NCBI RefSeq assembly: GCF_004295665.1
Contig: NZ_CP034759.1
Coordinates: 3,968,001 to 4,032,000 of the forward strand
Reading direction: 5' to 3'
Origin: Litorilituus sediminis
GTDB taxonomy: Bacteria > Pseudomonadota > Gammaproteobacteria > Enterobacterales > Alteromonadaceae
Length of the DNA: 64,000 bases
Positions 41,769 to 52,803 of this stretch are shown here, piece after piece (the first letter of the stretch is position 1; each line of letters opens with the position of its first letter). Under the pieces are notes generated by a model. That model was not told where the DNA came from. It saw only the letters and a list, made by a program, of their open reading frames with translations, and searched no databases. The translations under genes were made by a program, and so were the position numbers.

Positions 41769-42256
41769 CAGTGAGTTAGGCGCAGAAAATTAAAAATTAA
41801 TCATGTTTTTGTTTATTTTATTATAGCTCAGCTTTAGCATGATATTTAGTGGGTTGTGTATGTGTACTATTAGTCAGCGCACTAGCGACTCACTTTTTTT
41901 ATGCAAAAATGGGAGTTATGAAATAGGTACAATTTTAATTAACTTTATGGATTAAATTTGTAAATAAATTTGACTTACTACGAAGTTGTTAGTAAAACAT
42001 ACATTCTACAAAATTTATGTCCCTTAAATTATTTTTATAGTTTGAGTAATTTTGTAAAGATCACGATGCATTGTTTTGATAAAAAACATTAAAGCAATGG
42101 ACCGTGTTTTAAACTCCCATCTTGACAGCTTGCCTGTCATTTGGGATTATTGCTTAGTTGTATTCATAAAAAGTTACATTTTAAAAAACGACAGACTTAT
42201 ATATTTGCGGTAACAAATTCTTGTTATCAAAATTAAATAGCAATTGGTTGGGAACT
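41769..42256 (+). other. Intergenic region upstream of the TonB2 operon
   Basis: No gene seen. The region is AT-rich and holds no transfer RNA or clear terminator for the preceding gene. Its notable part is the strong promoter with an overlapping inverted repeat at 42115-42150, which probably drives the six-gene operon starting at 42257. Confidence 0.6.
42115..42150 (+). promoter_or_regulatory. Sigma70 promoter with overlapping inverted repeat, TonB2 operon
   Basis: TTGACA (42122-42127), exactly 17 bp, then GATTAT (42145-42150). The -35 box overlaps a perfect inverted repeat TGACAG-N5-CTGTCA (42123-42128, 42134-42139), itself inside a longer imperfect dyad TCCCA...TGGGA (42115-42146). The dyad is a plausible operator; the regulator is unknown and it does not look like a Fur box. 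Confidence 0.65.
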
Positions 42257-43036
42257 ATGTCCAAAGTAAGTAAGAAAAGCCTTATCGCGAGCGCGATGGT
42301 AGGTGCATTAGCATTGTCAGGCAGCAATTTCGCTGCAGCCGATGCATTAACAGACCTTCAAAAAGCTGAAGCACAAATCTTCAAAGCATCAGCTAAATCA
42401 CAAGCTAAAATCAACTCTATCTACGAGCAAACTCAAGAGCTTTTAGCTGAGTATCGTAATACTGTAGATGAAGCAGATGTTTTACGTGGTTATAACGATC
42501 ATGTTCAACGTATGGTTGATGATCAAAAAGCAAACATTGCTTCATTACAAAAGCAAATCGACGGTATCGATAAAATCAAGCAAGGTGTTGTACCATTAAT
42601 GTACAAGATGATTGATTCTTTAGAGAAATTCATCGAGCTTGACGTACCTATGAATATTGAACGTCGTAAAGAGCGTGTAGCAAACTTACGCACGGTAATG
42701 GATGATTCTAACGTTACTGTATCTGAGCAGTTCCGCTTAGTGCTAGAAGCTTATGAAATTGAAGCAGGTTACGGTACTATCTTCGATGCATATCAAGGTG
42801 AAATCGATTTAGGTGGTCGTACATTGACTGCTGACTTCGTTCACATGGGTCGTATTGCCTTTGTTGCACAATCACTTGATGCAAAGCATTCTTGGTTATG
42901 GAACAACGAAACACGTTCATGGGAAGAATTAGGTGATGAATACTTAAAACCTGTAACTGACGCTATTCGTATGGCGCGTAAACAACTTCCTATGGACTTA
43001 ACTAAACTTCCAGTATTTGCAGCAGGAGCACAATAA
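42257..43036 (+). CDS. DUF3450 domain periplasmic protein of the TonB2 cluster
   Basis: A 259-residue secreted protein. The signal peptide ends near SNFAAADA, and the mature part is mostly coiled coil (EYRNTVDEADVLRGYNDHVQRMVDDQKANIASLQKQID) followed by a compact C-terminal domain. DUF3450 proteins are encoded directly before ttpC in Vibrio and Shewanella TonB2 operons, but their role is not established. The start is ATG 42257 with GGGA upstream; the frame is open to 42221 without conservation. The stop overlaps the next ATG. Confidence 0.85.
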   Translation: MSKVSKKSLIASAMVGALALSGSNFAAADALTDLQKAEAQIFKASAKSQAKINSIYEQTQELLAEYRNTVDEADVLRGYNDHVQRMVDDQKANIASLQKQIDGIDKIKQGVVPLMYKMIDSLEKFIELDVPMNIERRKERVANLRTVMDDSNVTVSEQFRLVLEAYEIEAGYGTIFDAYQGEIDLGGRTLTADFVHMGRIAFVAQSLDAKHSWLWNNETRSWEELGDEYLKPVTDAIRMARKQLPMDLTKLPVFAAGAQ

Positions 43037-44385
43037 TGAAAAAAGTTATTAATTTTGTAGTGCTAGCTGCATCTATGACTGCAGGTTTTGCGGCAACAAC
43101 TCAAGCTAACACTTTAGATGATTTATTAAAGCAAGTTAAAGCGGATCGTATATCTGAAGCTAAGCTTGATAAAAAACGTGAAGCTGAGTTCTTATCAGAA
43201 CGTGCTGATAAGCAAGCGCTTTTAAATAAAGCTAAGCAAGAACTAGCGAATCAACAAGCGCGTAATAAGCGTTTAACAAAAGAATACGCTGAGAATGAAA
43301 TTGCTTTAGCACAAAAAGAAGTAGAGTTAGATAACGCTACTGGTACTTTAGGTGAAATGTTCGGTGTATCTCGTGCAGCTGCGGCAAATGCATACGGTCA
43401 AATCACTACATCAATTGTTAGTGCTGAATTTCCAAACCGTGGTGAAGCGTTAAATCGCATTGCTAACGCGAAAGAAATCCCTGCATTAGAAGATTTAGAA
43501 GAGTTATGGTTTGCTCTGCAAACTGAAATGACAGAATCAGGTAAAATCTCTAAGTTTAGCGTTGATGTAACAAACTTAGATGGTACTAAGTCTACTGAAA
43601 CTATTTCACGTATTGGTGCTTTTAACTTAGTTTCTGCAAATGGTTATTTAACTTACAACGATGAAGTTGGTCAAGTTCAGCCATTGCCTAAGCAACCAGC
43701 TGGCTTTATTGCTGAAACAGCGGTTAGCTTCTTTGGTAACAGCGCTGGTTACTCTGCAGTTTATGTTGACCCTTCACGTGGTGGTATCTTATCACTAGAG
43801 ACTCGTAAGAAAACTCTTGAAGAATTCTTCCATGAAGGTAAAGAAGTTGGTTATGCAATCACTGTATTACTTATCTTAGGTTGTTTAATTGCTATTGAGC
43901 GTTTAATCGTTCTAGGTGGCATGAGCGCTAAGATCCGTGCTCAAGAGAAGAACCTTGACAAGCCTAACGAAAACAACCCACTTGGTCGTTTATTAAAAGT
44001 TTTCTACGACAACCAGTCTGCAGATGCTGAAACGTTAGAACTTAAACTTGACGAAGCGATTTTACGTGAAACACCAAAAGTTGATCGTGGTGTTAACTTA
44101 ATCAAAATGTTTGCCGCTATTGCTCCATTAATGGGTCTATTAGGTACGGTAATCGGTATGATTATGACTTTCCAAACTATTACCTTATTCGGTACTGGTG
44201 ACCCGAAAATTATGGCGGGTAACATCTCTCTTGCGCTAGTAACAACGGCATTGGGTCTGATTTGTGCATTACCACTAATCCTTATCCACTCTATTGTTGC
44301 AGGTAAGAGTAAGTCTGTATTACAAAAACTAGACGAGCAAAGCGCTGGCTTAATTGCTGCTATTGCTGAGAAGGGGTCTAAATAA
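43036..44385 (+). CDS. ttpC: TonB2-associated MotA/TolQ/ExbB proton channel protein (TtpC type)
   Basis: A 449-residue protein with signal peptide (to about residue 25, ATTQAN), a periplasmic coiled coil (30-105, rich in Lys/Glu/Gln), a beta-rich periplasmic domain, and a C-terminal ExbB-like domain with three membrane helices (YAITVLLILGCLIAIERLIVLGG, IAPLMGLLGTVIGMIMTF, LVTTALGLICALPLILIHSIVAG). This architecture matches TtpC, required by TonB2 systems in Vibrio. TAATG overlaps couple it to both neighbours. Confidence 0.88.
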   Translation: MKKVINFVVLAASMTAGFAATTQANTLDDLLKQVKADRISEAKLDKKREAEFLSERADKQALLNKAKQELANQQARNKRLTKEYAENEIALAQKEVELDNATGTLGEMFGVSRAAAANAYGQITTSIVSAEFPNRGEALNRIANAKEIPALEDLEELWFALQTEMTESGKISKFSVDVTNLDGTKSTETISRIGAFNLVSANGYLTYNDEVGQVQPLPKQPAGFIAETAVSFFGNSAGYSAVYVDPSRGGILSLETRKKTLEEFFHEGKEVGYAITVLLILGCLIAIERLIVLGGMSAKIRAQEKNLDKPNENNPLGRLLKVFYDNQSADAETLELKLDEAILRETPKVDRGVNLIKMFAAIAPLMGLLGTVIGMIMTFQTITLFGTGDPKIMAGNISLALVTTALGLICALPLILIHSIVAGKSKSVLQKLDEQSAGLIAAIAEKGSK

Positions 44386-44909
44386 TGTTATTCCTGATAG
44401 AGCTTTGGGAATCTGTCAGGGGTTTTATTGCGACGGGTGGTAATGTACTTTATGTTGTTGCCTTCGCACTCTTCTTGATGTGGATATTGATGATTGAACG
44501 TTATTGGTTCTTAGCATCAGTATATCCAAAAATGAGAGATGACATCATCGCTCGTTGGGATGCACGACAAGATACTACATCTTGGTATGCACATCGTATT
44601 AGAGAGACTTGGATCTCCGAAGCAGACGAGAAACTTGAAGCGCGCATGATTACCATTAGAACCTTAGTGGCAATGTGTCCTTTAATCGGCCTACTGGGAA
44701 CAGTAACAGGTATGATTGGGGTATTTGAAGTCATGGCTCAACAAGGTACAGGTAATCCGCGTCTAATGGCCGCAGGTATTTCGCAAGCTACTATCCCGAC
44801 AATGGCGGGAATGGTTGCAGCATTATCTGGCGTGTTCTTTAGTTCAAGACTAGACGCTAAAGTTAAACTAGCAAAGGCTAAACTGATTGACAGTTTGCCT
44901 CATCACTAG
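44385..44909 (+). CDS. exbB2: ExbB-like proton channel subunit of the TonB2 system
   Basis: A 174-residue inner membrane protein with three helices: VLYVVAFALFLMWILMIERYWFL, CPLIGLLGTVTGMIGVFEVMA and TIPTMAGMVAALSGVFF. The TVTGMIGVF and P-T-x-x-G segments are conserved in the ExbB/TolQ family. It forms the stator with ExbD and energises TonB by proton flow. It starts within the ttpC stop codon (TAATG). Confidence 0.92.
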   Translation: MLFLIELWESVRGFIATGGNVLYVVAFALFLMWILMIERYWFLASVYPKMRDDIIARWDARQDTTSWYAHRIRETWISEADEKLEARMITIRTLVAMCPLIGLLGTVTGMIGVFEVMAQQGTGNPRLMAAGISQATIPTMAGMVAALSGVFFSSRLDAKVKLAKAKLIDSLPHH

Positions 44910-44921
44910 AGAGATATTTTC

Positions 44922-45323
44922 ATGGCACGTAAAAAAATCCGTGAGGAAGAAGAAGCAGCAATTGATATGACGCCAATGCTGGATATCGTATTTATCATGC
45001 TGATCTTCTTCATTGTAACCACTTCATTTGTTAAAGAAGCAGGTATTGAAGTAAACAAGCCAAAAGCGGCAAACCAAACTAAGCAAAAAAATGCCAACAT
45101 CTTTGTAGCTATCAAAGATAATGGTGAAATTTGGTTAGATAAAGGTCGTGTTGACATCGAACGTGTTGGTGCAAGGATTGAAAAGTTACTTGCAGAACAA
45201 CCTACTGATGTTGTAATCATTCAAGCTGACAAAGATGCTAAACACGGTATCGTTGTTAAAGTAATGGATGCAATTAAAGAGGCTGGCATAGACCGAATTT
45301 CTATCGCGGCTGCGAAGGGGTAA
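44922..45323 (+). CDS. exbD2: ExbD-like stator subunit of the TonB2 system
   Basis: A 133-residue protein with one N-terminal helix, AIDMTPMLDIVFIMLIFFIVTTSF, containing the membrane Asp that carries protons in ExbD/TolR. The periplasmic domain ends in MDAIKEAGIDRISIAAAK, as usual for the family. It lies 12 bp after exbB2 and 4 bp before tonB2. Confidence 0.94.
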   Translation: MARKKIREEEEAAIDMTPMLDIVFIMLIFFIVTTSFVKEAGIEVNKPKAANQTKQKNANIFVAIKDNGEIWLDKGRVDIERVGARIEKLLAEQPTDVVIIQADKDAKHGIVVKVMDAIKEAGIDRISIAAAKG

Positions 45324-45327
45324 TAAT

Positions 45328-45942
45328 ATGGTTCGCTTTTTAGTATCAATACTACTAGGCGCTGGCATAACCTTTGGCTTATTTGCTTTTATGGCCTTCC
45401 TTGTTTCGTCTGGTGACAGAAACAAGGAAGAGCAACAAGAGAATATTATCGTAGAAGTAAATACGACGCCGCCGGAGTCAGCAGCTGAACAGCGTAGACG
45501 TGTACCGCCTCCGCCGCCTCCGCCGCCTAAAGCGCCGCCTAAGCAGCAAGCTCCTGAGCCAGAAGCTAGTAACGATACTGGTGGTTTGAAGTTTAATATG
45601 CCAGGTGTGCAAATGTCTGGTCCATCGACAGGTCTTTCTGCACCAGGTGCTGGTATTGGTCGAGATGGTGATGCAACACCGATTGTACGTATTGAGCCAA
45701 AATACCCAATACAAGCTGCTCGTGACGGTAAAGAAGGTTATGTAATTCTTTCATTTACTATTAATGAAGTAGGTGGTGTAGAAGATGTTAAAGTAATCGA
45801 AGCTCAGCCTAAGCGTGTTTTCAACAAAGAAGCAATGAGAGCGCTTAGAAAGTGGAAGTACAAGCCAAAAGTTGTTGATGGTAAAGCACAACGACGTCCT
45901 GGTTTGACGGTTCAACTAGACTTTAAAATGGGAGGTGAATAA
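45328..45942 (+). CDS. tonB2: TonB2 energy transducer
   Basis: A 204-residue TonB-family protein. A single N-terminal helix (VSILLGAGITFGLFAFMAFLV) is followed by a short proline-rich spacer (RRRVPPPPPPPPKAPPKQQAPEPE) and the C-terminal TonB domain (PIVRIEPKYPIQAARDGKEGYVILSFTINEVGGVEDV ... ALRKWKYKPKVVDG). The short spacer is typical of TonB2 rather than TonB1. Its stop overlaps the start of the TPR gene. Confidence 0.94.
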   Translation: MVRFLVSILLGAGITFGLFAFMAFLVSSGDRNKEEQQENIIVEVNTTPPESAAEQRRRVPPPPPPPPKAPPKQQAPEPEASNDTGGLKFNMPGVQMSGPSTGLSAPGAGIGRDGDATPIVRIEPKYPIQAARDGKEGYVILSFTINEVGGVEDVKVIEAQPKRVFNKEAMRALRKWKYKPKVVDGKAQRRPGLTVQLDFKMGGE

Positions 45943-47204
45943 TGTTTAAACAGTTATCAACTTCTTTGGTAGTCGCTGCTGCTCTTTTAGTTACTCAAGC
46001 GCCATTTGCCGATGTTGCAATGGCTGCTGAAGCTAAAGAAGAGAAGAAGAAAAAGCGTCCTACACAGCTTGTTGGCCCACGTGTTGGTAAAAAAGTTCAG
46101 AAAGCATTTGAAGCTTATAGTGCTGATGATATTCAAGGCGCGTTAGATATTTTGTTGGCAATTGATCCATCAAAAGATTATGACAAGGCTTATGTATCTC
46201 GTTTTATTGCGGTAATGTATGCTACGCTGGGTGATAATGAGCAAAAAACTATTGATTATCTGATTAAGGCAGTTGAGCCTGATATTTTGAATGAGGTTGA
46301 TCATGGTGAAGCGTTAAAGTTATTAGCTGACATGCAAATGCAAGTTAAAAACTATAAAGAAGCGCTTAAGTATTATTACCAATGGATGGAGTTTACTGGT
46401 AAAGAAGACGCTCCAACTTACGTGAAGATAGCTAATGCTTACTATTCTCTTAAGCAATTAGATAAAGTTATTGTACCCGCTGATAAGGCAATTGCGGCAT
46501 TTGGTGATAAGCCAAATCAAAACCCGTATGTTTTGAAAGTTACTTCTTACTATGAGCGTAAGATGTATAAAGAAGCAATTGAAGTGTTAGAAACTGTTGT
46601 GCAAATTTTTCCGGACAATAAGCAATGGTGGACTCAGCTACCAATGTTTTACTTGTTGGTTGAAGATTATGCCAAGGCAGTACAAACTTTAGATTTAGCT
46701 TATAAGCTGGGGCATCTTGATAAGGAAAGCCAAATTAAGACACTGGCTAACTTATACTCATCAAGTGATGCTCCATATAAAGCTGCACGTTTGCTTGAAA
46801 AGCATATTGGCTCAGGTTTAGTTAAGCGTGATGATAAAAACATCACTACATTAGCTAATGCTTGGCACTCAGCTCAGCATATTGATAAGGCCGCCAAATA
46901 TTATGGTGAACTTGCCAAAATGACGAATGAAGCTAAGCACTACCGTAAGCAAGGTATGTTATTAAAGCAGGATGAACAGTTTGCTAAAGCAATTCCAGCA
47001 TTAAATAAGGCATTAGAACTTGGAATAAAGAACCAGGGTCGTATTTATATGAGTATTGCTGAGTCATACTTCTATTTAGAAAACTATAAGCAAGCTTATG
47101 CCGCTATTCAAAAAGCAATGAAAGATCCAAATACTCGTAAGACAGCGAATACTTGGAAAGGCTTTATTGAAGATACAGCTAAGCGTAAGAAAGTGGCTAT
47201 CTAG
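45942..47204 (+). CDS. TPR-repeat periplasmic protein of the TonB2 cluster
   Basis: A 420-residue secreted protein. The signal peptide ends around AMAAEA. It then has a Lys-rich stretch and at least six tetratricopeptide-like helical repeats (for example KDYDKAYVSRFIAVMYATLGDNEQKTIDYLIKAVE, YAAIQKAMKDPNTRK at the end). A TPR protein closes the TonB2 operon in Vibrio as well. It probably scaffolds the complex, but this is inference. A terminator follows. Confidence 0.88.
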   Translation: MFKQLSTSLVVAAALLVTQAPFADVAMAAEAKEEKKKKRPTQLVGPRVGKKVQKAFEAYSADDIQGALDILLAIDPSKDYDKAYVSRFIAVMYATLGDNEQKTIDYLIKAVEPDILNEVDHGEALKLLADMQMQVKNYKEALKYYYQWMEFTGKEDAPTYVKIANAYYSLKQLDKVIVPADKAIAAFGDKPNQNPYVLKVTSYYERKMYKEAIEVLETVVQIFPDNKQWWTQLPMFYLLVEDYAKAVQTLDLAYKLGHLDKESQIKTLANLYSSSDAPYKAARLLEKHIGSGLVKRDDKNITTLANAWHSAQHIDKAAKYYGELAKMTNEAKHYRKQGMLLKQDEQFAKAIPALNKALELGIKNQGRIYMSIAESYFYLENYKQAYAAIQKAMKDPNTRKTANTWKGFIEDTAKRKKVAI

Positions 47205-47223: not shown

Positions 47224-47252
47224 AAAAACCAGCACATGTGCTGGTTTTTTTA
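47224..47252 (+). terminator. Terminator of the TonB2 operon
   Basis: A 12-bp nearly perfect palindrome AAAAACCAGCAC/GTGCTGGTTTTT followed by TT, 19 nt after the last stop of the operon. Confidence 0.88.
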
Positions 47253-47304: not shown

Positions 47305-47332
47305 CTGACAGAGTGAAATTTTTATATATACT
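47305..47332 (+). promoter_or_regulatory. Sigma70 promoter of the HvfA-like gene
   Basis: CTGACA (47305-47310), 16-bp spacer, TATACT (47327-47332). Five of six bases match in each box. It would give a leader of about 68 nt before the start at 47407, which is preceded by AGAAGGGA. Confidence 0.6.
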
Positions 47333-47406
47333 TACAGGTCAGTATCTATAGTTAATTTAGTTGGTAAACTTTTGCCGACACATCAAAAAGATAGAAGGGA
47401 AAAAGC

Positions 47407-47946
47407 ATGAATTTATTAAATAAAACTTCAATTGTTGCTCTAGCTGGGCTTATTTCATTAGGCTTGCTTACTGCAAATGTTGCAAAAGCTGAGGTTAACC
47501 CATTTGCTGCCAATGATGTAGTTACATTGGCTGAACAAAAGAAAGATAGCAAGTGCGGTGAAGGTAAATGCGGCGAAGGTAGAATGAAAGCCAAAGGCAA
47601 GTGCGGTGAAGGCAAATGCGGCGAAGGTAAAATGAAAGCCAAAGGCAAGTGCGGTGAAGGCAAATGTGGCGAAGGTAAAATGAAAGCCAAGGGCAAGTGC
47701 GGTGAAGGCAAATGCGGCGAAGGTAAAATGAAAGCCAAGGGCAAGTGCGGTGAAGGCAAATGCGGCGAAGGTAAAATGAAAGCCAAAGGCAAGTGCGGTG
47801 AAGGCAAATGTGGCGAAGGTAAAATGAAAGCCAAAGGCAAGTGCGGTGAAGGCAAATGTGGCGAAGGTAAAATGAAAGCCAAAGGCAAGTGCGGTGAAGG
47901 TAAATGCGGCGAAGGTAAAAGTAAAAGCAAAAAATGTGGTGGTTAG
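47407..47946 (+). CDS. Secreted Cys-rich tandem-repeat protein, HvfA-like RiPP metallophore precursor
   Basis: A 179-residue protein. The signal peptide (1-28, cleavage after AKA) and a short spacer (EVNPFAANDVVTLAEQKKDS) are followed by eight tandem 16-residue units of KCGEGKCGEGKMKAKG type and a final KKCGG. There are 17 cysteines, all in KCG context, and eight EGKCG motifs. EGKCG repeats behind a signal peptide are the hallmark of HvfA-type peptides, in which an HvfB/HvfC (DUF692 iron oxygenase and DUF2063 partner) pair converts the Cys into oxazolone/thioamide copper ligands. No hvfB, hvfC or DoxX gene is in this window, so modification is inference. It has its own promoter and terminator. 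An unmodified metal-binding protein is the alternative. Confidence 0.78.
   Translation: MNLLNKTSIVALAGLISLGLLTANVAKAEVNPFAANDVVTLAEQKKDSKCGEGKCGEGRMKAKGKCGEGKCGEGKMKAKGKCGEGKCGEGKMKAKGKCGEGKCGEGKMKAKGKCGEGKCGEGKMKAKGKCGEGKCGEGKMKAKGKCGEGKCGEGKMKAKGKCGEGKCGEGKSKSKKCGG
47551..47916 (+). repeat. 48-bp tandem repeat, about 7.6 copies
   Basis: Seven full 48-bp units from 47551 to 47886 plus 30 bp of an eighth. Within units 2-7 the only differences are at synonymous Cys (tgc/tgt) and Lys (aaa/aag) codons; units 1 and 8 also differ at a Gly (ggt/ggc) codon, and unit 1 has an Arg codon replacing Lys. Units 2 and 5 are identical, as are 6 and 7, indicating recent duplication or gene conversion. Confidence 0.95.
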
Positions 47947-47979: not shown

Positions 47980-48008
47980 AAAAAGCCAGCGTAATGCTGG
48001 CTTTTTTT
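47980..48008. terminator. Terminator after the HvfA-like gene, possibly bidirectional
   Basis: AAAAGCCAGC/GCTGGCTTTT stem (47981-47990 with 47996-48005) with a 5-nt loop and T-run; it lies between convergent genes and has A-run on the other side. Confidence 0.87.
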
Positions 48009-48033: not shown

Positions 48034-48552
48034 TTACTCGACTCTACCAACATAATAGTACACAGACCATTTAGATTTAAATAAGCCGCTATCTGGGACT
48101 AAATGGGTAGAAAGCGTCACTTGTGTTTCTGTATTTGTATATTCAGCTTTTAAACCGTCATCATTACGTCTAGAGCTTTCATTAAGATGCCAGCTAGTGC
48201 CTAAGCATTGAGCAATGGTTGCTTTAGCATTGCTGTAGTACTTACGGGCATCACTTTCGTCGACTTTAATCGTGTTACATGAGTAGGTTGTTTGTGCTTT
48301 TCCCCATGACCATATTCGGCAGTTTTTGCCAATCAGATGGTATTTTGCTTGCCAAATGTTGCTGATACCAGCCTTAATTTTTGTCTGCTTTAAGTCGTTA
48401 AAGCCGTCATCATAAGCCTTAATAAGATAATCAAGCTTTTGACAAGCGTTGCTAACTGGCTCTAGTTGCTGCTGAGCAATCTTATTTTGATTGGCACAAG
48501 AAGCTAACATTAAACTTGAAACAAGTACTGATGCTTTGAAAATATTGTTCAT
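48034..48552 (-). CDS. Hypothetical lipoprotein, 172 aa
   Basis: The N-terminus MNNIFKASVLVSSLMLASCANQN has a signal helix and a lipobox (LASC, lipidated Cys at 19). The mature part has four further cysteines and an aromatic-rich C-terminus (KSKWSVYYYVG). I do not recognise a family. No Asp at +2 after the Cys, so outer membrane sorting is likely. Convergent with the HvfA-like gene; whether the two are related functionally is unknown. Confidence 0.68.
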   Translation of the reverse strand: MNNIFKASVLVSSLMLASCANQNKIAQQQLEPVSNACQKLDYLIKAYDDGFNDLKQTKIKAGISNIWQAKYHLIGKNCRIWSWGKAQTTYSCNTIKVDESDARKYYSNAKATIAQCLGTSWHLNESSRRNDDGLKAEYTNTETQVTLSTHLVPDSGLFKSKWSVYYYVGRVE

Positions 48553-48716
48553 AATTAAAGGATTAACGTCCTGTTACCTTGTTGAGAGTAGATTAAAGCT
48601 ATGGTACAAAATTCTATCGATTATTGGTAGCTTTCATCGTGAAGTTGAACAATTTTTGCGATTGCTTAAGGCGCATCTATACTAAATATGAGAGAAAAAT
48701 AGTGTTGGAGGTTATT

Positions 48717-49196
48717 ATGACTATATCAACCAAACTGACTCGTTATTTGAACGAGAAAAATGTCCCTTACCAGGCTATAGAACATTTCCACAGTAATAGT
48801 TCGATAGGCACTGCTGTTACCGCCAATGTAGCATTAAATGAAATAGCTAAGGCAGTCCTTCTAAAAGATCACGAAGATAGACGCTTAATGGCGATTTTAC
48901 CTGCAAATAATAAAATTAACTTATCTATCCTTAATGAATGTTTGCATGGCTCATATCAGTTACTTAAAGAACAAGAGGTATATCAAGCTTTTTCTGATTG
49001 TGACTTGGGAGCTATTCCACCCGTTCCGGGGGCATATAACATGAATATGATCTGTGAAGAAGAGTTAGACAGACTTGATACTGTTTATTTAGAAGCTGGC
49101 GATCATAAAACGTTACTGCAACTAGATAAGGGCGCTTTTAAGCATATTATGTCAGTAGGAAAGCACTTTCATTTCAGCCAGACTGTTTTTCATTAG
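48717..49196 (+). CDS. YbaK/EbsC-family aminoacyl-tRNA deacylase-like protein
   Basis: A 159-residue single-domain protein of the YbaK/ProX editing family, which removes mischarged amino acids from tRNA. The N-terminus MTISTKLTRYLNEKNVPYQAIEH and the EIAKAVLLKDHEDRRLMAILPANNKINL core, with the conserved catalytic-type lysine, fit the family. The specificity is not readable. The start is ATG 48717 with TTGGAGG upstream; an upstream extension to 48624 is rejected. Confidence 0.85.
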   Translation: MTISTKLTRYLNEKNVPYQAIEHFHSNSSIGTAVTANVALNEIAKAVLLKDHEDRRLMAILPANNKINLSILNECLHGSYQLLKEQEVYQAFSDCDLGAIPPVPGAYNMNMICEEELDRLDTVYLEAGDHKTLLQLDKGAFKHIMSVGKHFHFSQTVFH

Positions 49197-49270
49197 TATC
49201 GTAATAATGATATATCAGTAAAGTGAATTTGTAGGTACAATACCGGGTCATTCTTATACAGGACCACGCT

Positions 49271-49906
49271 TTGATTAACAACGATATACTAAGACGTTTA
49301 CGATATACCTTTAATTACCATGATAAGAAAATGGTTGAGCTGTTTAAATATGGAGGTGTTAGTACTTCTAAGGAGCAGGTTGTAAACTGGTTAAAGAAAG
49401 ATTCAGATGAGGGCTTTCTCCTTTGTCAGGATTTTGAATTGGCAGGCTTTTTAAACGGGTTTATTATTGAAAAACGCGGTAAAAAAGAAGGGACTGAGCC
49501 AGTACTAGAGTCAAAGTTAACTAATAATCTGATCATGGTTAAACTTAAAATAGCCTTGAATTTAAAAGCGGATGATATTATTACCTTATTGGAAAAGGTA
49601 GATTTTAGCTTTTCAAAGTCAGAGCTTAGCGCGCTTTTTAGGCGACCAGAGCATAAGCACTATAGGGTGTGTAAAACTCAAGTGCTTAGAAATTTTTTGA
49701 CTGCAATTGATAAGCAATATCACGTTGCAAGGCCTGGCTCAAAAGCAACAGCAAAAAGTAAGAAAAAGCCAACTCATCATGTCAAAGAGCCTAAGCAACA
49801 AGGGGCTAGAGCAAATATTAGTAGTATTTATCAGAACCCTAATTTGAAAAGTAATGTCGATGATTTGCCAAACAAACCAAAGCGGAAAGTATTGAAATTA
49901 AAATAA
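49271..49906 (+). CDS. DUF1456 family protein (YehS-like)
   Basis: A 211-residue protein with two copies of the DUF1456 module: MINNDILRRLRYTFNYHDKKMVELF (1-65) and NNLIMVKLKIALNLKADDIITLLEKV (85-150), each ending with an LxxFxRxx(E/D)-like stretch. The C-terminal tail of about 55 residues is basic and probably disordered. The start is TTG with AGGA about 8 nt upstream. E. coli YehS has the same two modules; its function is unknown. Confidence 0.85.
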   Translation: MINNDILRRLRYTFNYHDKKMVELFKYGGVSTSKEQVVNWLKKDSDEGFLLCQDFELAGFLNGFIIEKRGKKEGTEPVLESKLTNNLIMVKLKIALNLKADDIITLLEKVDFSFSKSELSALFRRPEHKHYRVCKTQVLRNFLTAIDKQYHVARPGSKATAKSKKKPTHHVKEPKQQGARANISSIYQNPNLKSNVDDLPNKPKRKVLKLK

Positions 49907-50047
49907 TACAGTTATTGTAATAAAGTTGATGTTTAATTTTATCTGTCACTGTCGTAATTCATGGTTATGCGTTAAAATCACCCTCCTTTTTAAAAGTGTC
50001 AATAGCAATGATTTGATTGCTTTTTATTAGAGAAGAAAGTTAATAAA

Positions 50048-50443
50048 ATGAAAATTTTGGTTGTAGATGATAAATTGTCTGTACAAGAGACTTTGACTAA
50101 TCTCTTATGTCAACACGGACATCAAGTCGATGTGTCAACAAATGGTCTTGATGCTTTTGAAAAAGCGCAAAAGAATGATTATCAGCTTTATATCATAGAT
50201 CATTTAATGCCGTTGATGAATGGTGTTCAGTTAGTTAAGAATTTAAAACAAACCGAGCATTGTGCAACTACACCTGTATTATTTATGACAACGCAAGGCA
50301 TATCAGAAGCGGAGTCTTTACCTGAATACACATTATTTAATGATGTGATCACTAAGCCATTAAATAATGAAGCGTTGTTAAAAAAACTGTACTCACTAGG
50401 AGCAGTACCCAGCCCCACAGAGTTCACTATTATAGCTAGTTAA
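50048..50443 (+). CDS. Stand-alone response regulator receiver protein
   Basis: A 131-residue CheY-like protein without an output domain. The acidic pair is Asp7-Asp8 (VVDDK), the phosphoacceptor Asp51 (YIIDHLMPLMNG), the switch Thr region is LFMTTQG and the conserved Lys is in VITKPLN. No histidine kinase is nearby, so its partner is unknown. It precedes dnaX by 137 bp, with an apparent promoter gap. Confidence 0.88.
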   Translation: MKILVVDDKLSVQETLTNLLCQHGHQVDVSTNGLDAFEKAQKNDYQLYIIDHLMPLMNGVQLVKNLKQTEHCATTPVLFMTTQGISEAESLPEYTLFNDVITKPLNNEALLKKLYSLGAVPSPTEFTIIAS

Positions 50444-50580
50444 ATTTCTAGACTTACTTGATTTAAAAAGTAACTAGATTTTTATCTACAGTCGATTACT
50501 ATGTTGCTTGTTGATTTCTACACTCTTGGTCTATTAAATTAGTTTAGGTTTTTTATGTACTTTACATCGAGTAAAAATTT

Positions 50581-52803
50581 ATGAGCTATCAAGTTTTAGC
50601 GAGAAAGTGGCGTCCTAAAAATTTTCAACAGTTAATGGGGCAGGGCCATGTTGTCGATGTATTAGTCAATGCTTTAGAGCAAAAACGTTTACATCATGCC
50701 TACTTGTTTACTGGCACTCGCGGGGTTGGTAAAACAACTATAGCAAGAATCTTTGCCAAAAGTTTAAATTGTGAAGTAGGCATTACTTCTTCTCCTTGTG
50801 GAACCTGTGCTACTTGTGTTGATATTGATGAGGGGCGTTTTATCGATCTTTTAGAGATAGATGCCGCCTCTAAAACCAAAGTAGATGATACGAGAGAAAT
50901 TTTAGATAACGTTCAGTACGCACCAACTCGAGGTCGCTTTAAAGTTTATCTTATCGATGAAGTTCATATGCTATCTAGGCACAGTTTTAATGCCTTATTA
51001 AAAACATTAGAAGAGCCGCCTGAACATGTGAAATTTATTCTAGCAACAACTGATCCGCAAAAGTTACCGGTAACCGTATTATCCCGCTGTTTACAATTCC
51101 ACTTAAAGGCCTTGAGCGTTGCACAAATAGAAGCCAAGTTAACAGAGATACTTATGCATGAACAGGTATCTCATCAACCGGGCTCATTGACTTTTTTAGC
51201 AAAAGCCGCTCGTGGCAGTATGCGAGACTCATTGAGCTTAACAGATCAAGCTATAGCGCAAGGTCAAGGCAATATTCAATTAGCCAATTTACAGCAAATG
51301 TTAGGCGGGGTAGATCAAAACTGGGTATATAAGATTGTTATTTGTTTATTAAAACAAGATAGCGCAGAAATGATGGCTCTGTCACAAACAATAGCTGCGT
51401 ACGCTCCGAGTTATACACGTTTGTATGCCGAGTTGATTCAGTTATTTCATCAAGTTGCCTTATATCAGATTGTTGAACAGCATTTTGATTTGCCAGCTGA
51501 GCACATAGCACTATTAAAGAAATTCTCTCAAGCCATGTCTGCTGATGATGTCCAGTTGTATTATCAAATTGTCTTAAATGGCCGTAAAGATTTACCTTAT
51601 GCCTTTGATGAACAAGCCGCTTTTGATATGACCTTGTTAAGGTTGCTAGCCTTTAAGCCGCTCGCTATTGATCATGCTGTAGAAATAGCCACAAATAACA
51701 ACTCACAGTCAATTCACCTTGATTCTGAGCCGTTAGAAAATACCTTTAGTGCAGAAAGCACTGAAGAGCAAGCAACTATCAATAAAACTCAGGATGAATT
51801 GGTAGAGGAAAAAAATCTTGATTTAGTCTCGAATAAGTCACCTCAAGTTGATGAACAGACACAGTTGCAGGATACTAGTTTACTTATTGATGCCTCGACA
51901 AGCGAAGCTCACTCAGGTGAAAGTCAATTTGATGAAGTTCACCATGCATTATCATCTCAGGCTGAAGCAATAGAGCAACAAGCTGAGCAAATGTCGCAAT
52001 CTCTAGTGAATAAAGACGCCTATACGCAAGAAACGGATGCTAATCCTCCCATTATAGAGAGTCAGCAGCAAGGCCAAGATATAGGCTTAGAGCATCAAAA
52101 CAAAGGGCATCAAAATAAAGAGCAGCCAACACCTAGAGCAGAGGAAAATACCACTCAAACTGAGCTTAATAGCCCTGTAAGTGCTGTGCTTGCGACACGA
52201 AATATGTTGCGGAGTCGGAAAAAGCAACTGGAGCAAAATGCAAAAAAGCCTGATGACGCAGCAATGCGTCATCACACAGCCAATGATAATACAGAACATA
52301 ACTCTGAGAATAATGGAGTAGCTGCTAACGCTTCAGATCATGAAGAAAAACAGCGGTTACCTGAACCGACTATTTCATTTCAAGAAGATGTAATCGACCC
52401 CGCGGTTATTAAAAAAGCCAATCAGGTTGATAAATGGGCACATATGATAGATGCCATGGAGTTAACAGCCCGTATTAGGCAGTTAGCCATTCATGCCACT
52501 ATTAGTGAGGCATCTGATGATGATCATTTAATATTAAAGCTAGATCAAGCGACAAAACATTTAAAAACTGAAGTCGCAGAAAAGCAATTAGAAGAATATA
52601 TCTGTCAGTTTTTATCGCGAAAAGTGAAAGTAACGATTGACTTGGTTGAGCAAACGGTTGCTGACCCTTATCAGATTCAATCACATATCAATGATAAGCG
52701 TTATGATTATGCAAAACAGCTTTTAGCAAGTGATAACATTGTTATCGCCCTTAAAGAGCAGTTTCAAGCAAGTTTAGCTGAAGATACAATTGTCGCGCAT
52801 TAG
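50581..52803 (+). CDS. dnaX: DNA polymerase III subunits tau (full length) and gamma (by frameshift)
   Basis: The clamp-loader ATPase, 740 residues as tau. Walker A GTRGVGKT is at 45-52, the four zinc-binding cysteines are at about 64-79, and the SRC motif is in VLSRCLQFHL. A Gln/Glu-rich linker (about 385-610) precedes the tau-specific domain that binds the polymerase. Inside the linker is a complete -1 frameshift signal at 52230-52274, which would give a 557-residue gamma form. First gene of dnaX-ybaB-recR. Confidence 0.97.
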   Translation: MSYQVLARKWRPKNFQQLMGQGHVVDVLVNALEQKRLHHAYLFTGTRGVGKTTIARIFAKSLNCEVGITSSPCGTCATCVDIDEGRFIDLLEIDAASKTKVDDTREILDNVQYAPTRGRFKVYLIDEVHMLSRHSFNALLKTLEEPPEHVKFILATTDPQKLPVTVLSRCLQFHLKALSVAQIEAKLTEILMHEQVSHQPGSLTFLAKAARGSMRDSLSLTDQAIAQGQGNIQLANLQQMLGGVDQNWVYKIVICLLKQDSAEMMALSQTIAAYAPSYTRLYAELIQLFHQVALYQIVEQHFDLPAEHIALLKKFSQAMSADDVQLYYQIVLNGRKDLPYAFDEQAAFDMTLLRLLAFKPLAIDHAVEIATNNNSQSIHLDSEPLENTFSAESTEEQATINKTQDELVEEKNLDLVSNKSPQVDEQTQLQDTSLLIDASTSEAHSGESQFDEVHHALSSQAEAIEQQAEQMSQSLVNKDAYTQETDANPPIIESQQQGQDIGLEHQNKGHQNKEQPTPRAEENTTQTELNSPVSAVLATRNMLRSRKKQLEQNAKKPDDAAMRHHTANDNTEHNSENNGVAANASDHEEKQRLPEPTISFQEDVIDPAVIKKANQVDKWAHMIDAMELTARIRQLAIHATISEASDDDHLILKLDQATKHLKTEVAEKQLEEYICQFLSRKVKVTIDLVEQTVADPYQIQSHINDKRYDYAKQLLASDNIVIALKEQFQASLAEDTIVAH
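52230..52274 (+). promoter_or_regulatory. Programmed -1 ribosomal frameshift signal in dnaX
   Basis: Three elements are visible. The slippery heptamer A-AAA-AAG (52242-52248) is in the correct reading phase (codons GCA AAA AAG). A Shine-Dalgarno-like GGAG (52230-52233) lies 8 nt upstream. A perfect 10-bp hairpin with GCAA tetraloop (52251-52260 with 52265-52274) starts 2 nt downstream. After slipping, the ribosome reads GCC and then TGA (52251-52253). The layout copies the E. coli dnaX signal, except for the shorter spacer. Confidence 0.87.

Follow-up and report, generated by a model that had tools for sequence, protein, structure and literature searches.

Within the window (the whole 64-kb stretch of DNA analysed here), a short gene related to hvfA lies between a TonB2-type operon and a group of genes that runs to dnaX. 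The features of the locus are given below.

42221..47204, + strand: TonB2-type operon forming the upstream flank of the hvf site (from sequence features)
about 47225..47251, + strand: hairpin and T-run closing the upstream operon (seen on direct inspection, absent from the output of the hairpin scan)
47314..47344, + strand: promoter-like block, TGAAATTTTT-N13-GGTCAGTA, common to other orphans and to MNIO-linked hvfA genes of other genera
47407..47946, + strand: orphan hvfA, encoding a Cys-rich protein of 179 aa that has a putative signal peptide, eight KCGEGKCGEGKMKAKG-type units of 16 residues and 17 Cys
47407..47490, + strand: Sec signal peptide, M1-A28 (AKA followed by E), judged by eye
47497..47505, + strand: NPF motif close to the mature N-terminus, also present in many MNIO-linked HvfA proteins
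47549..47932, + strand: repeat array, 8 x 48 bp (Tandem Repeats Finder)
47980..48006, + strand: intrinsic-terminator-like hairpin 3' of hvfA (from a hairpin scan that is weak alone, shuffles of the region averaging 1.0)
48034..52803, no single strand: downstream flank of hvfA, from a 172-aa gene (- strand) through dnaX (from site comparison)

The hvfA open reading frame starts with ATG, 5' of which lies a purine-rich stretch. By eye, the N-terminus of the product, MNLLNKTSIVALAGLISLGLLTANVAKA followed by E, resembles a Sec signal peptide with K near the start, a hydrophobic core and AKA at its end; in an alignment of 20 orphan sequences A28 is invariant. Tandem Repeats Finder resolved the array into 8.0 copies with a period of 48 and 96% matches (score 689). 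Each 16-residue unit carries two Cys, the array closes with KCGG, and 17 of 17 Cys lie in KCG. The initial annotation had described just such a secreted-type protein and had called it HvfA-like; the reading frame, the repeat finder and the Cys count confirm the description, and the homology is borne out by NF050137, the NCBIfam model of the KCGExKCG repeat domain, which matched eight stretches and scored 110.4 bits (cut-off 19.5), placing the repeat protein beyond chance. The HvfA equivalog model NF050188 gave 71.5 bits, under its cut-off of 95 bits. Pfam searches with the protein returned no match up to E=10, DUF2282 included, and a sequence search of the PDB returned none either. An AlphaFold model based on 20 orphan sequences had a mean pLDDT of 43.4 and a pTM of 0.21, with residues 35-179 below 50, and showed short strands every 16 residues at a confidence too low to carry weight. 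This result neither supports nor contradicts the beta-helix model published for a relative of HvfA (PMC12452194, section 15).

Searches of the 64-kb window returned no match to hvfB, hvfC or a DoxX-type (HvfX) gene, and inspection of both site and window agrees with the initial annotation that the gene is an orphan. From sequence features, we take the genes at 42221-47204 to be those for DUF3450, TtpC/ExbB, ExbB2, ExbD, TonB and TPR proteins; four of the six products are 94-100% identical to their counterparts in Colwellia sp. RSH04, and the window is assigned to this genus by inference. The downstream flank presumably holds genes for the 172-aa protein (- strand) and ybaK-like, proQ-like and cheY-like products, followed by dnaX. 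The 172-aa gene (48034-48552, - strand) is lipoprotein-like, and some members of the genus have relatives of it at this position (L065, L067, L118, L119, L132 and others). Rfam gave four matches in the hvfA flanks, with E values up to 0.07, all under the gathering scores and to unrelated families; we took these as chance and rejected an RNA element there.

The initial annotation had proposed that the enzymes might act in trans from elsewhere. The genome of the window is complete (one contig of 4,275,717 bases), and profile searches of it gave no match to PF05114 (MNIO/DUF692) or PF09836 (DUF2063), for which 2 of 14 and 1 of 14 control genomes, respectively, were positive. A tblastn search of the same genome with HvfB of a sister genus yielded nothing at E<=1 in a run that held no positive control of its own; the query gives matches in 30 of 30 MNIO-linked loci (E<=0.01). 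With HvfC the sole tblastn match had an E value of 0.19, spanned 46 residues and contained an internal stop. Enzymes in trans are therefore rejected for this genome, and the lack of both DUF692 and DUF2063 genes is the genomic half of what the initial annotation held to speak against a RiPP; the homology and the orphan status in its interpretation stand. We also considered remnants of hvfBC hidden near hvfA, and rejected them: tblastn at E<=0.01 found neither hvfB nor hvfC in 47 MNIO-less loci (44 orphans and three that bear the GY motif described below), and both genes score in 30 of 30 linked loci at this threshold.

Among 147 genomes of the family, NF050137 matched in 110 and PF05114 in 107; 87 genomes have both, 23 the repeat protein only, 20 the MNIO only and 17 neither. 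In Colwellia, hvfA is found in 35 of 39 genomes, 33 through the NF050137 search and two (G186 and G208, the latter with the gene at a contig end) by reading the site. The site could not be judged in G192 and G214, which are among the four genomes without a found hvfA; in G200 and G206 it was read and holds no hvfA, so the gene is dispensable. PF05114 matched in 20 of the 39 Colwellia genomes, and the 35 hvfA carriers divide into 19 without such a match and 16 with an MNIO of another type. We take the Colwellia MNIOs to adjoin Buf1-like or Buf2-like precursors or no clear precursor, and there was no EGKCG reading frame within about 1.5 kb of the MNIO in any of 30 loci (30 of 33 MNIO places). 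An MNIO profile built from 14 of 30 loci detects an MNIO in all 30. In some Colwellia genomes an apparently Buf2-like precursor with HCYGVNKCNGHNDCK repeats lies directly 5' of the MNIO, and presumably DUF2282-like precursors precede other Colwellia MNIOs (L098-L100 and L149-L151 for the two kinds together). These Colwellia loci look like separate bufferin-type clusters.

To follow the history of the site, we compared it across the family. In the MNIO-bearing genera, 21 of the stretches fetched carry hvfA-hvfB-hvfC and then apt-dnaX-ybaB-recR, with a cheY-like gene before apt in two of them. The hvfABC genes directly follow the TonB2 operon and the TPR gene in 11 stretches (L204-L214), and the operon is nearby in L232 and L233. 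In Ferrimonas sediminicola (L075), which belongs to another family, the order is hvfA-hvfB-hvfC-cheY-apt-dnaX. The Colwellia site reads TonB2 operon-TPR-hvfA and, hvfB and hvfC being absent, continues with variable genes and then dnaX; the variable genes are, by our naming, ybaK-, proQ-, cheY- and apt-like in various combinations. The TonB2 side is visible in 24 of a set of 36 loci and in the window. In four of these 24 loci the gap between TPR and hvfA is about 1.2 kb, and the gap gene in the two that were read (L083 and L089) is presumably dusC-like. A divergent dusC-like gene also stands before hvfA in most of the orphan loci of other genera that were read (not in L219, L235 or L237) and in the linked locus L233. 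There is a second class of orphan (MKLIKKSSIAALLGLFALT...NPFA), with no TonB2 neighbour (L001, L016, L023, L029, L068, L073, L078, L080, L240 and L241); a dusC-like gene lies upstream in all four of its loci that were read (L068, L073, L240 and L241).

For 32 loci that have hvfA and lack hvfBC, the fetched stretch also covers dnaX. These 32 group together as a clade (SH-aLRT 100) in a 54-row DnaX tree, and the tree requires no more than one change of state. Rooting with Ferrimonas as the outgroup places the root among the rows with hvfBC, which favours loss over gain; under a gain, Ferrimonas would likewise have had to acquire hvfBC at this very position. With the labels as given, a tree of TtpC and ExbB2 (39 rows) implies two changes, and L215 accounts for one of them; when L215, which ends at a contig edge, is left out, one change remains, with a support of 100. 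Both trees are quick searches without bootstrap. Among the loci compared, some represent one genome twice (for example L089 and L223). We infer that the hvfA gene of Colwellia and its kin is what remains, at the ancestral site, of an hvfABC cluster from which hvfBC was lost in what appears to have been a single event.

The orphan proteins also differ from the linked ones between the signal peptide and the repeats. We compared 101 distinct EGKCG reading frames, 35 of them linked (with an MNIO within 1.2 kb) and 66 others. The motif L-x(0-4)-G-Y, a feature found in the present comparison and no published criterion, occurs in 32 of the 35 linked frames, the remaining three having MAYQ or GSFQ. 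Six of the 66 unlinked frames have it and 60 do not (two of the 60 are artefacts, one the second frame of a masked locus and one truncated). All six belong to MNIO-bearing genomes: L093, L095 and L096 have the MNIO 2.3-2.5 kb away, L008 and L082 have it elsewhere in the genome, and locus L030 ends at a contig edge. None of the readable frames of MNIO-less genomes has the motif (0/18 in one set and 0/22 in a second of 23 genomes, one of which was unreadable), and it is absent from the orphan frames of MNIO-bearing Colwellia. The window protein has AANDVVTLAEQKKDS after NPF and no L-x-G-Y. Counted from the NPF-type anchor, the 38 linked or GY-bearing proteins have G at +10 in 82% and Y at +11 in 87%; the 58 orphans have V at +8 in 71% and T at +9 in 78%. 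In vitro, FonBC tolerates every single pre-core change, with no residue essential (PMC13097082, section 12), so the loss of GY is a sign of released constraint and no proof of lost substrate quality. HvfBC is reported to act much better on HvfA that carries its signal sequence (PMC13419390).

Signs of selection on the coding sequence were sought within and outside the array, in a set that omits five of the 101 frames (L002, L013, L019, L139 and the second frame of L088). Across seven of the eight units of the window array, the 21 pairs sum to 28 synonymous and six nonsynonymous differences (pS 0.147, pN 0.007). For the N-termini of the orphans the median dN/dS is 0.38, and 77% of 493 non-independent pairs fall below 0.5. 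Orphan HvfA appears to evolve under constraint; gene conversion can likewise homogenise arrays.

Upstream of the orphans lies a promoter-like block with the consensus TGAAATTTTT-N13-GGTCTATG. At a level of at least 14 of 18 positions and within 150 nt of the start, the block precedes 30 of the 33 Colwellia orphans, a circular count, as the 18-position consensus derives from these genes. It also precedes 19 of the 25 orphans from other genera and, among linked or GY-bearing genes, 19 of 38; neither of these counts is circular. The respective expectations per dinucleotide shuffle are 0.0024, 0.0036 and 0.0016; 6 of the 25 other-genus orphans and 19 of the 38 linked genes fall below this level. 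A looser core, TGAAA[TG]-N17-GGTC[TA], picked post hoc after viewing all rows, is present in 28/33, 15/25 and 25/38 of the same groups, against 0.0003, 0.0004 and 0 per shuffle. The form TGAAAT-N17-GGTC has one match in the window, at hvfA, with 0.09 expected. The block resembles ECF/sigma-E promoters, and is a candidate of this kind. A sigma-70 promoter was given no weight: one match is well placed, but the region holds two against 1.6 expected. That a switch shared with hvfABC has persisted after the loss of hvfBC argues for a live, regulated gene.

A search of the genus for the block with at most one mismatch returned 47 matches spread over 32 of the 39 genomes; judged by coordinates, 29 lie at the hvfA site. 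A control search with the pattern reversed gave 20 matches, and the 18 off-site matches lie within this background and do not exceed it, so no regulon can be named. In the genome of the window there was no match at this stringency, the second half of its block differing at two positions. A further block match, identical in two genomes (G109:C23:304229 and G197:C41:278694), may mark another target. In G206, the genome without hvfA at the site, an exact copy (G206:C19:99766-99794) lies about 6 kb from an MNIO on the same contig, which may be chance.

Taken together, these data suggest, with a probability of roughly 0.6, that the gene encodes a former RiPP precursor that has been kept and acts without modification as a thiol protein, probably buffering soft metals in the periplasm. 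This reading draws on what comparison of sequences has established, namely the homology and the common site, the missing enzymes, the retention across the clade, the sharing of the promoter and the loss of the motif. An ancestor of Colwellia and its kin would have lost hvfB, for the MNIO, and hvfC, for its DUF2063 partner, and hvfA, its promoter and its signal peptide would have stayed under selection. HvfA would be exported by Sec and function as translated, free of thiooxazoles. Its numerous Cys, closely spaced in C-x4-C pairs, would serve as free thiols and, once the gene is on, most likely bind periplasmic Cu(I) or a different soft metal. Since the modifying enzymes are missing, the product is very probably unmodified in the cell. 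That it binds metal, by analogy with its relatives, is somewhat probable; for copper as that metal, an extrapolation from the modified relatives, the odds are about even. We lean towards a 'de-RiPPed' precursor: a clade that lost the modifying enzymes once may have re-used the precursor and its older promoter for an unmodified secreted thiol protein.

An unlikely alternative is a disulfide/redox or envelope-structural protein, in which the Cys pairs would be oxidised and the Lys/Glu-rich array would buffer redox changes or bind surfaces rather than chelate metal. Oxidation is the normal fate of free thiols in the periplasm, as this alternative would have it, and the ECF/sigma-E likeness of the block would fit envelope stress. 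However, the KCGEGKCG core is that of the copper-binding relatives, and across 58 orphans 625 of 626 Cys lie in KCG (407 of 412 in linked or GY-bearing proteins) and 57 of the 58 have the C-x4-C pair. It seems quite improbable that an enzyme other than an MNIO, or a highly diverged MNIO, modifies HvfA from another locus. Such an enzyme could be beyond the reach of homology searches, but profile and tblastn searches returned no MNIO from the window's own genome, and no conserved new neighbour replaces hvfBC among the ybaK-, proQ-, cheY-, apt-like or variable genes between hvfA and dnaX.

The MNIOs of another type in 16 of the 35 Colwellia carriers could act on HvfA in those strains. Modification in trans by such bufferin-type enzymes wherever they are present, with the window strain a recent loser, is less probable still. 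It would gain from the presence of an MNIO in about half of the Colwellia genomes (20/39), near apparently Buf1-like or Buf2-like precursors or near none. There is, however, no positive association between the two genes: all 19 MNIO-less Colwellia genomes keep hvfA, and an MNIO is present in each of the four genomes where no hvfA was detected. The GY motif is, moreover, missing from the readable frames of MNIO-less genomes and from the orphan frames of MNIO-bearing Colwellia alike. A wide substrate range would also help this alternative, and FonBC accepts varied substrates in vitro (PMC13097082). Finally, a vestigial gene, retained by chance and with repeat homogenisation mimicking selection, would fit the disappearance of hvfA from the site in two genomes and the near-identical repeat copies that gene conversion would leave, but it is very hard to reconcile with the clade-wide presence, the 58 distinct orphan genes, the synonymous excess outside the array as well and the retention of the promoter-like block.

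Orphan HvfA can be compared with several known systems. Like HvfA/oxazolin (Buf_EGKCG, of the Haemophilus influenzae hvfABCX cluster), it has repeated EGKCG and, as judged by eye, a Sec-type signal peptide, it shares with many HvfA relatives the NPF near the cleavage site, and it occupies the chromosomal site of hvfABC in the MNIO-bearing genera of the family. It differs in that both its site and its whole genome lack hvfB and hvfC, that L-x-G-Y is missing and that its score falls below the equivalog cut-off. The initial annotation's idea of a modified Cys ligand is kept for HvfA, but the oxazolone/thioamide it named gives way to the 5-thiooxazole assigned in two papers (PMC13419390, PMC13097082). 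The fontiphorin and captophorin precursors FonA and NgoA have EGKCG 5-mer repeats as orphan HvfA does, but their systems include an MNIO with a DUF2063-type partner and make 5-thiooxazoles (PMC13097082). The bufferins Buf1 and Buf2 are, like HvfA, exported Cys-rich substrates of MNIOs; orphan HvfA has no match to DUF2282, the domain of Buf1. Metallothioneins, likewise short and rich in Cys, use thiolates to bind soft metals, a comparable mode of working; orphan HvfA differs in being exported, and has no Pfam match.

Precursors in MNIO-less genomes, as in the genome of the window, have been tallied before: Antoine et al. (2025) counted 67 of 2583 Buf_EGKCG genomes without an MNIO and suggested a PTM-free activity or a loss of expression or function (PMC12452194). 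In the accessible part of that paper the treatment is a tally; the present analysis follows a single clade at a single site, with one probable loss, a promoter-like block in common and a motif that has disappeared. Within the same part, no word begins with TonB, Alteromonad- or Colwell-, and Cognaticolwellia occurs in the legend of a figure, for a Buf2 model. A literature search, with most subscription journals outside its scope, returned nothing on HvfA in Colwellia, on a clade-wide loss of hvfBC, on the site or on the promoter. What is new is that the orphan EGKCG genes of one clade can be traced to what was probably a single loss of hvfBC, most of Colwellia having retained hvfA. This offers a natural experiment on what the thiooxazole contributes, with the presumably unmodified Colwellia protein set against the modified HvfA of sister genera at the same site. 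If the precursor is indeed de-RiPPed, the thiooxazole would be dispensable for the basic function of the family, and metallophore names based on repeat content alone need not imply modification.

Such naming already affects database entries. Among the 120 matches listed, the UniRef name 'HvfA family oxazolone/thioamide...' stands on two rows, both from Colwellia (P0048 and P0054), and the other named rows read hypothetical or low-complexity protein. No MNIO match was obtained for BRX10-3, from which P0054 comes, nor any PF05114 match for C. ponticola or C. marinimaniae. The name attached through NF050137 claims more than has been established for genomes that lack an MNIO.

The shared promoter-like block provides a handle on the regulator of the hvf cluster. 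The TonB2-type operon adjoins hvfA upstream in many genera, MNIO-bearing and MNIO-less alike, and this recurring neighbour hints at a possible link between the hvf products and TonB-dependent transport.
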